DNA of 32,369 nucleotides from contig CADCUI010000051.1 of the NCBI GenBank assembly GCA_902805845.1, forward strand, positions 1-32,369, in the 5' to 3' direction. The notes under the pieces are model-generated. The model saw nothing but the letters and a program-made list of their open reading frames with translations, was not told the DNA's origin and made no database searches. How positions within the stretch are numbered: position 1 is the first letter of the stretch; every line of letters begins with the position of its first letter. A program made the position numbers and the translations under genes. Below, piece by piece: positions 31,211-32,369 of the stretch. The stretch is from an uncultured Nocardioidaceae bacterium (GTDB lineage Bacteria; Actinomycetota; Actinomycetes; Propionibacteriales; Nocardioidaceae).

Positions 31211-31268
31211 CCCCGCCCCGTCCGATCGGGCGCGGGACATGGCGCGCGCCCGATCGGACGAGGCGGGG
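31211..31268. repeat. Palindromic element H1 upstream of the AbiEi/DUF559 gene
   Basis: Arms at 31211-31234 and 31245-31268 are complementary at 23 of 24 positions around a 10-nt loop. Each arm contains the unit CGATCGGACGAGGCGG or its complement (one change). The same unit recurs three more times in the last 120 bp of the window. The element starts 34 nt beyond the hemW start codon and ends 62 nt before the next gene. It has no T-run and is too large and regular for a simple terminator. Confidence 0.9.
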
Positions 31269-31330
31269 TGTACGGGGGCGGTTGTGGATGACGAGGACCC
31301 GGTACGGCGCAGCTGTGGGACGGTCCTCGG

Positions 31331-32269
31331 ATGCGCGCCGACGACCTCAAGGGGTGGGTGGACCTTGCCGAGCGACAGGCCGGCGTGATCTCCCGTGACC
31401 AGCTGCGCACCTACGGGGCGGACCGCCACTTCGTGCGTACCCAGCTCTCGGCCCGGCGGTGGCAGCAGGCGAGCGGCACCGTGCTCGTCACGACGACCGG
31501 GCCGCTGTCACGCGCTCAGCGGCTGTGGGTAGGCGTGCTGCAGGCCGAGAGGCCGGCTGCTCTGTCAGGGCTCACCGCGCTGGAGGTCGCCGGGTTGCGC
31601 GGCTGGGCCCGGGAGGAGATCACCGTGCTCGTGCCCAAGTCCGACGACCCGGTCCGGCTGGCCGGCTATCGGTTCGCCGAGACCCGCAGGGACATCCCGA
31701 TGCTGACCGCTCCCACGGCGCCGCCCCGGCTGCGCATCGAGCCGGCGACGCTTCTGTGTGCTGCCTACGAGCGTTCCGAGCGGACCGGGAGTGCGCTCCT
31801 GGCCGCCGTGGTGCAGCAGCGGCTCACCACGGTCGGCAGGCTGCGCGAGGAGCTCGCCGCACTCCGGCCGCTGCGCCGGGCGCCCCTGTTCCGGCTGCTT
31901 CTCGGTGACATCGAGGGCGGCGCCCAGTCCATGGCGGAGATCGACCTGGGACGGGTCTGCACCCGGTTCGGCCTTCAGCCTCCGCACCGGCAGACGCCTC
32001 GGCGGGACCGCAACGGCAGGCGACGGTGGCTCGATGCCGAGTGGCACCTGGCCGACGGTCGGATCATCGTGCTCGAGGTCGACGGGGCCTTTCACGGCGA
32101 TGTCGAGCACTGGTGGAGCGACATGGGACGCGAGCGGGAGCTGGTGATCAATCGGCGCGAGGTACTCCGATGCAGCTCCTACGAGCTGCGCCGGCAGCCG
32201 GAGCGGATCGCGGCCGACCTTGCTCGCATCGGCGTACCGATGCGGCGTCCGGGCGAGCGCGGCGCCTAG
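31331..32269 (+). CDS. AbiEi-antitoxin-like N-terminus fused to DUF559 (Vsr-like nuclease fold)
   Basis: The 312-residue protein begins with an AbiEi-type winged helix (about 8-55: LAERQAGVISRDQLRTYG), followed by the AbiEi middle segment (ALSGLTALEVAGLRG, then a beta-rich part with VPKSDDPVRLAGYRF). The C-terminal 110 residues match DUF559, a PD-(D/E)XK fold related to Vsr: LDAEWHLADGRIIVLEVDGAFH gives Asp235, Glu249 and Asp251 as candidate metal ligands, followed by WWSDMGRERELVINRREVLRCSSYELRRQP (in part). Such genes are numerous in Nocardioides-type genomes and no partner toxin is visible here. Function is unproven; DNA cleavage or nicking is the inference. It has no clear ribosome binding site. 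The last codons and stop lie inside a degenerate copy of the flanking palindromic repeat. Confidence 0.85.
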   Translation: MRADDLKGWVDLAERQAGVISRDQLRTYGADRHFVRTQLSARRWQQASGTVLVTTTGPLSRAQRLWVGVLQAERPAALSGLTALEVAGLRGWAREEITVLVPKSDDPVRLAGYRFAETRRDIPMLTAPTAPPRLRIEPATLLCAAYERSERTGSALLAAVVQQRLTTVGRLREELAALRPLRRAPLFRLLLGDIEGGAQSMAEIDLGRVCTRFGLQPPHRQTPRRDRNGRRRWLDAEWHLADGRIIVLEVDGAFHGDVEHWWSDMGRERELVINRREVLRCSSYELRRQPERIAADLARIGVPMRRPGERGA

Positions 32270-32293
32270 GACGCGCTCGATCGGACGAGGCGG
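32245..32293. repeat. Degenerate palindromic element H3 covering the AbiEi/DUF559 stop codon
   Basis: The right arm (32272-32293) carries the intact unit CGATCGGACGAGGCGG. The left arm is weak (32245-32261, sharing GTCCG and GAGCGCG with the other copies). The loop contains the gene's TAG stop, where the neighbouring copy has CATAG. The gene end was therefore either built from, or invaded by, the repeat. Confidence 0.7.
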
Positions 32294-32331
32294 ATGCGGC
32301 GGCGGGCTCACCCGCCTCGTCCGACTGAGCG
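32274..32331. repeat. Inverted pair downstream of the AbiEi/DUF559 gene
   Basis: Arms 32274-32293 and 32312-32331 pair at 18 of 20 positions around an 18-nt loop. It uses the right arm of H3 and the left arm of H2, so the transcript could fold in alternative ways. It begins 5 nt after the stop codon and could serve as terminator. Confidence 0.75.
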
Positions 32332-32366
32332 CGGCGCATAGCACGCGGGCGATCGGACGAGGCGGG
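32311..32366. repeat. Palindromic element H2 at the window end
   Basis: The left arm (32311-32333), a 10-nt loop and the right arm (32344-32366) match H1 in layout. Fourteen outer base pairs are intact, an internal mismatch of a few bases follows, then CGCG/CGCG. Segment 32327-32365 repeats 32255-32293 at 35 of 39 positions. The array probably continues past the window. Confidence 0.8.
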
Positions 32367-32369
32367 GGT

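Follow-up and report, generated by a model that had tools for sequence, protein, structure and literature searches.

Introduction

REP elements are common repeats of bacterial genomes. The RAYT genes associated with them are flanked by REPs, occur in single copy and are each distinct where a genome holds several, as described in a section of PMC3116915. CGTC REPs are reported to have no dedicated transposase (PMC3733652), and Di Nocera 2013 describes inverted repeats, some of them moderately abundant, around Y1 transposase genes. The words transposase and endonuclease do not occur in the accessible portion of a 2025 survey of REPs (PMC12306157). On the protein side, the YcjD profile detected Vsr (PMC1189080), and the available part of the same article states neither a function nor a link to repeats for YcjD/DUF559. 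In the open-access literature, no report was found that ties DUF559 to palindromic repeats, although mention elsewhere is possible, nor any report of REPINs with a RAYT in Actinobacteria.

Here we analyzed the window, a stretch of 32,369 nucleotides forming contig CADCUI010000051.1 of an uncultured Nocardioidaceae bacterium (the host genome), in which a DUF559/AbiEi-like gene lies between palindromes. Comparison with its homologues (genomes, contigs and loci are labelled G, C and L) suggests that tiny mobile DNA repeats with an enzyme of their own form a family that has gone unnoticed until now.

Results

A nuclease gene between palindromes

The first-pass annotation had reported five copies of a 16-mer. 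All five were recovered at the same coordinates, three exact and two imperfect (31213-31228 with 1 mismatch, 32312-32327 with 2 mismatches), and no sixth copy was detected in the window with up to 3 mismatches allowed. Shuffled sequence searched at up to 3 mismatches contained a mean of 2.7 16-mers, and five or more in 14 of 100 shuffles; the evidential weight lies on the three exact copies, the hairpin pairing and the genome counts. Folding bore out the proposed hairpin design, with arms of about 22-24 nt and a loop of 10 nt (z-scores of -7.5, -6.4 and -4.0 for three plus-strand stretches). The positions of the 16-mers stand, and their grouping was revised to three palindromes, of which the second, downstream of the gene, is decayed. 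A search against Rfam gave three matches, each far under its gathering score. The features of the locus are as follows.

31213..31266, no strand assigned: upstream palindrome of 54 bp with 22-nt arms and a 10-nt loop, between the divergent hemW and nuclease genes
31331..32269, plus strand: AbiEi/DUF559-like nuclease gene, 312 aa (homologue alignments, PADLOC, structure prediction)
31352..31678, plus strand: AbiEi-like N-terminal part, residues 8-116, presumed DNA-binding (PADLOC AbiEi, E=2.2e-9)
31928..32230, plus strand: DUF559/Vsr-like C-terminal nuclease part, about residues 200-300 (alignments, profiles)
32240..32293, no strand assigned: decayed downstream palindrome, 42 bits on covariance model R1
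32312..32365, no strand assigned: second downstream palindrome, 72 bp from the first downstream one and 4 bp from the contig end

The left arm of the palindrome at 32240-32293 overlaps the 3′ end and stop codon of the nuclease gene, and the upstream neighbor was identified as hemW (TIGR00539).

The protein had been read as a Vsr-like fold fused to an AbiEi winged helix. Its AbiEi part was detected directly by PADLOC, and AbiEi_4 was matched in 20 of 48 alignment members (E≤0.1). The assignment of the nuclease part comes from relatives rather than from the protein's own Pfam result: Pfam returned no match for the window protein, DUF559 (PF04480) included, while DUF559 was matched in 34 of the 48 alignment members (E≤0.1, best 1.6e-5). 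The Vsr family was absent from the 8 Pfam families matched by these 48 sequences. A profile of 20 diverse homologues reached the solved endonuclease-like protein 3hrl with E=8e-6 over residues 224-301, compared with only 0.34 for a profile of the close homologues alone. Active-site-like residues are conserved, E203, Q221, D235, E249, G252, H255, D264 and R267 being invariant in the 20 diverse and 48 close sequences, and the predicted structure is confident (pLDDT 92, pTM 0.83).

Homologues are bracketed by matched palindromes

Bracketing was quantified with a score defined as the best ungapped match between a left-flank hairpin and a right-flank hairpin. A first set gave a matched pair (score ≥12) at 24 of 48 loci, against 0 of 48 distal flanks taken at these loci, where control windows clipped by contig ends scored 0, and 21 of 2256 crossed loci. 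The count of 24 is too low, since the score misses pairs that are clear by eye in left-right alignments (L058, L066, L067, L072, L074 and L102). The second set came from a genome scan of which the 80 top-ranking loci among 156 were retained; after 4 of these 80 were left out for lack of a whole gene call, a pair (score ≥14) was present at 57 of 76 loci versus 2 of 68 distal and 177 of 5700 crossed comparisons. One of the two distal matches (L114) is an artefact, the window having overrun the contig and caught the gene's own flanks.

Across all distinct homologues (160 loci, 152 with a gene call and 8 dropped for lack of a whole call), matched pairs were present in 101 of 141, compared with 1 of 60 distal controls whose windows were complete, and fell below the threshold in 40 of 141. 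Specificity controls gave 0 of 29 loci for hemW and 2 of 127 for neighboring genes. With another homologue as query, the palindromes lay a median of 1052 bp apart, center to center (95 of 134 loci). A link between repeat and nuclease family, proposed from the single locus, is therefore upheld by the concentration of matched pairs at family members. The copies are dispersed like REPs, yet these genes are strongly enriched in matched pairs on their two sides, and no reasonable doubt is left that palindrome and nuclease are associated.

Palindromes are specific to paralogues

Paralogues were compared in 25 pairs from 14 genomes, with identities of 27-78%; near-identical multiple gene copies within a genome were found in none of them. 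Both loci possessed a clear pair of their own (≥13) in 12 of the 25, and at least one locus was without it in the other 13. For 11 of these 12, the best palindrome match between paralogues did not exceed 13. The exception, G147, reached 22 between paralogues versus 43 and 36 within loci. In G012, two paralogues that are 78% identical (L096 and L097) scored 44 and 27 within their loci and 8 between them, and the three homologues of the host genome have three unrelated palindromes. On a broader scale, the palindrome class was shared by 61 of 120 nearest relatives below 70% identity, against a mean of 24 and a maximum of 43 in 1000 shuffles, with crude classes chosen by eye and relatedness obtained by a fast method. 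The palindrome is tied to the paralogue and not to the genome.

Dispersal in the host genome

Within the window, the 16-mer is indeed confined to the flanks of one gene, as first described; genome-wide it is not, and many further copies exist. The host genome (3.28 Mb, 91 contigs) contained 57 matches (30 + 27) at up to 2 mismatches, and the reversed-pattern control 4. The 54-bp palindrome was located at 27 or more hairpin places (54 strand matches), three of which bracket the nuclease gene; this is a lower bound, as covariance model R1, built from 18 copies, scored 150 of 7575 candidates. Three pairs of places at contig ends are alike, flanks included (two such stretches, when compared, gave 97% and 88%), so some of the 27 may be duplicates. 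Six contigs stop close to a palindrome copy, at a distance of up to 65 bp for C24, C26, C33 and C51 and of up to 220 bp for C28 and C86, so that the repeat seems to break the assembly.

In the extracted copies, the outer 16-mers are partnered 38 bp apart for a total of 54 bp, with L030, which has no partner, as the sole exception, and sequence likeness between copies ends at the palindrome borders. Compensatory arm changes amounted to 0 pairs in the 18 copies, a count biased by the choice of copies on one good arm. Uncompensated arms fit a copied DNA element better than a selected RNA, and an RNA structure under selection was rejected on the same count. According to rough gene calls, 8 of 21 host copies lie inside an open frame. 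No nuclease remnant was detected at E 0.01 near 20 loci of other host copies. The palindrome of the host paralogue on C72 is hardly dispersed, with its two flanking copies, one further copy with 1 mismatch and one with 3 (reversed control: 3).

Dispersal and co-occurrence in other genomes

The exact pattern GTCGTGTGCC-N(20-34)-GGCACACGAC was present in 22 of 197 family genomes, with 97 copies in all and up to 24 per genome; the reversed control gave 0 everywhere. Although 40-54 bp were permitted, 81 of the 83 copies listed measure exactly 46 bp. A homologue or remnant is found no more than about 210 bp away from 14 of these 83 copies (of 97), where about 0.06 were expected by a hand estimate. 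A nuclease homologue, near or distant, was found in 19 of the 22 genomes carrying the palindrome, and none at threshold in G128 (5 copies), G122 and G134 (1 copy each).

A second pattern, ACGTCCGAA-N(22-40)-TTCGGACGT, was found in 20 of 38 genomes of a genus with 8-Mb genomes from the same order, with up to 180 copies (control: 0) that form runs at 61-62-bp spacing. Such runs comprise four palindromes in G218 and resemble REPIN clusters (C55:53269-53497, C99:53116-53342 and C101:18021-18249). A matching nuclease (≥53% identity) occurs in 8 of the 38 genomes. All 8 genomes that have this nuclease contain copies (1 to 180), compared with 12 of the remaining 30 (P = 0.0026; rank test 3e-4; both uncorrected for kinship), and two of these 12 contain remnants of the gene (G043 and G230). 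All 8 matching genes are bracketed by palindromes with exact arms, the upstream one beginning 73-187 bp ahead of the start codon and the other lying at the stop codon.

Palindromes also stand beside gene remnants in G066 and G149. Dispersed palindromes with the nuclease gene absent or reduced to a remnant were observed in G128 (5 places), G149 (C11:196513) and G043 (C80:163197), and these genomes are candidates for decay after gene loss.

Presence and absence of the unit

In G027, which belongs to another genus, the hemW-adjacent orthologue lies between two near-identical palindromes of the same design and a different stem. The 1100 bp between the stop codon of an AMP-binding acyl-CoA ligase gene and hemW consist there of palindrome, gene and palindrome, the first hairpin beginning 2 bp past the ligase stop codon and the last ending 18 bp before hemW. 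None of 29 relatives has the nuclease at hemW. Where both neighboring genes were in reach (20 of the 29), the gap ranged from -43 to 284 bp and was below 120 bp in 17, with 15, 21 and 29 bp in G003, G004 and G015. At the hemW locus of the 29 relatives, no hairpin reached the threshold in 23, and the six others carry a hairpin that, judged by eye, differs from the window's; the hairpin at L253 is of the TTGTCAG type. Comparison of orthologous loci with and without the gene, which the first-pass annotation had linked to precise insertion or excision, thus revealed a unit of about 1.1 kb that is missing as a discrete block, at one locus and by gain or loss.

Near L153 (Nocardioides sp. ChNu-153) stands a palindrome doublet without a gene; the site of L159 (N. 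alkalitolerans) that aligns with it does not have the doublet, a single case compatible with gain or loss. The 269 kb covered around the genes contained three extra copies.

Short YcjD-like DUF559 genes

With E. coli ycjD (DUF559) as query, 43 records of a plasmid collection were obtained. Matched pairs flanked the YcjD-like genes at 12 of 22 places: 10 of 16 in a first batch (score ≥11; 0 of 48 controls) and 2 of 6 in a second, whose 18 control values peaked at 10. L244 and L231 look paired by eye, and the palindrome is one-sided or missing at L230, L234, L236, L241, E. coli ycjD and L277-L279. Several of these genes lie inside operons (suf, L242; hpa, L239, L245 and L281; paa, L280; transhydrogenase, L276). 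The palindrome link is thus probably a property of DUF559, beyond the AbiEi fusion alone.

Palindromes of the CCCTCTCCC or CCCCCAATTCTGGGGG type bracket short DUF559 genes at L235, L237, L239, L240, L242-L245 and L280, in alpha-proteobacteria, Deinococcus and cyanobacteria. The flanks of the DUF559 gene of Novosphingobium (L237, 2001-2297) look CGTC-REP-like by eye, with CGTC, an AT-stem and a CCA tail. That CGTC REPs are the general alpha-proteobacterial partner is no more than a possible lead, as the YcjD-type plasmid matches mostly occur with CCCTCTCCC-type palindromes. In Neisseria gonorrhoeae (L232, gene at 2001-2339), a 114-bp repeat with 88% identity stands on both sides of the DUF559 gene, and the solved protein 3hrl may be a relative of it. 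E. coli ycjD itself (L229, 6408-6761) is flanked by a CCCCTCACCCTAACCCTCTCCCC-type repeat on just one of its sides.

Discussion

We favor, with a probability of about 0.6, a REP/RAYT-like system whose enzyme is an unrelated PD-(D/E)XK-type nuclease. The simplest account is that the nuclease spreads or homogenizes its own palindrome, and we infer that it recognizes and cleaves it. One element would comprise palindrome, nuclease gene and palindrome. Each nuclease lineage would have its own palindrome, presumably recognized via the AbiEi-like N-terminus, and the C-terminal DUF559 part (PD-(D/E)XK, Vsr-related) would presumably nick or cut it. Single and double palindromes may then spread in trans as non-autonomous copies. 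The gene itself would rarely be mobile, with few distinct copies kept, and its decay would leave palindromes behind.

Homing by gene conversion is an unlikely alternative in which the nuclease would cut palindromes, or matching sites without the gene, and repair would copy the unit and homogenize the palindromes, the dispersed copies being targets or relics. The nuclease domain, the matching left and right copies and the 21 neighborhood clusters among the 76 loci would all be expected from such a process. At hemW, however, no target palindrome is visible, because the hairpins of the gene-free relatives are absent or unlike the window's, and homing alone leaves unexplained both the up to 180 copies per genome and the runs spaced by 62 bp.

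A rather more doubtful reading treats the gene as a passenger, cargo between palindromes moved by another transposase. It would account for a unit bounded by palindromes and has a parallel in the inverted repeats that Di Nocera 2013 reports around Y1 genes. The class of transposase searched was Y1, and the REP transposase family PF01797 was detected in 0 of 25 genomes, the host genome included, although the same profile matched 5 of 14 control genomes; a RAYT in the host genome was accordingly rejected. Moreover, palindrome identity follows the nuclease paralogue and palindrome class follows nuclease relatedness, and both speak against a passenger.

AbiEi antitoxins use inverted repeats to repress the operon that encodes them. 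Self-regulation would have the AbiEi-like part bind the palindrome and repress its own gene, with the downstream palindrome as a terminator and the other copies as regulated genes or terminators, and several host copies do lie directly past stop codons or between convergent genes according to rough gene calls. We nevertheless judge this improbable, as it leaves unexplained the downstream copy of the same sequence, the dispersal at fixed length, the clusters and the palindromes beside remnants in G066 and G149.

The alternatives of the first-pass annotation, that the palindromes are plain terminators or a dispersed repeat present here by chance, would agree with strong hairpins and a dispersed repeat and are scarcely credible, given near-zero bracketing controls (distal, hemW and neighboring genes), and terminators in particular fit poorly with a palindrome between divergent genes, a paralogue-specific sequence and its absence from relatives together with the gene.

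More broadly, DUF559/Vsr-like nucleases, alone or fused to AbiEi, may serve a large class of bacterial palindromic mobile repeats as their dedicated enzymes, a tentative generalization to which we give somewhat less than even odds. If true, it would represent a second, independently invented REP system, with PD-(D/E)XK instead of HUH chemistry, that could take in some abundant repeats for which no enzyme is known, among them the CCCTCTCCC-type repeats of Proteobacteria, the cyanobacterial GGGGG palindromes and possibly the CGTC REPs. If a second nuclease family is tied to palindromes of its own, many genes now named 'DUF559' or 'AbiEi antitoxin' would gain a suggested function, many actinobacterial repeats would be explained, and naturally occurring nuclease-palindrome pairs would become available, with a specificity that the genome itself reveals.

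Among known systems, the AbiE type IV toxin-antitoxin shares the AbiEi-like N-terminal domain, but the C-terminus here is nuclease-like; no toxin gene was found among the two named neighbors (hemW and, in G027, the AMP-binding acyl-CoA ligase), the downstream side of the window's own gene lying beyond the contig end. YcjD/DUF559 (PF04480) and the Vsr-related PD-(D/E)XK nucleases correspond to the C-terminal domain, which in the window protein is assigned through its relatives. CGTC-tagged REPs (Di Nocera 2013) are likewise short palindromes without a known transposase, and CGTCAT occurs in 16 of 120 loci here, some palindromes starting with it; most palindromes here are longer and symmetrical. 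As with an insertion sequence, palindromes and gene form a discrete block missing from relatives (at the hemW locus only), but the near-identical multiple gene copies of an insertion sequence are lacking in the 25 paralogue pairs (27-78% identity).

The closest system is REP/REPIN with RAYT. It differs in its enzyme, a Y1/HUH transposase instead of a DUF559/AbiEi protein, and in its palindromes, which here are longer (about 42-56 bp), nearly symmetrical and, across 17 copies of the window's family aligned together with their flanks, without a conserved GTAG end. Both systems have an enzyme gene flanked by short palindromes, non-autonomous copies dispersed as singles, doublets and clusters, and distinct enzymes that each possess their own palindromes, encoded by genes without many near-identical copies.
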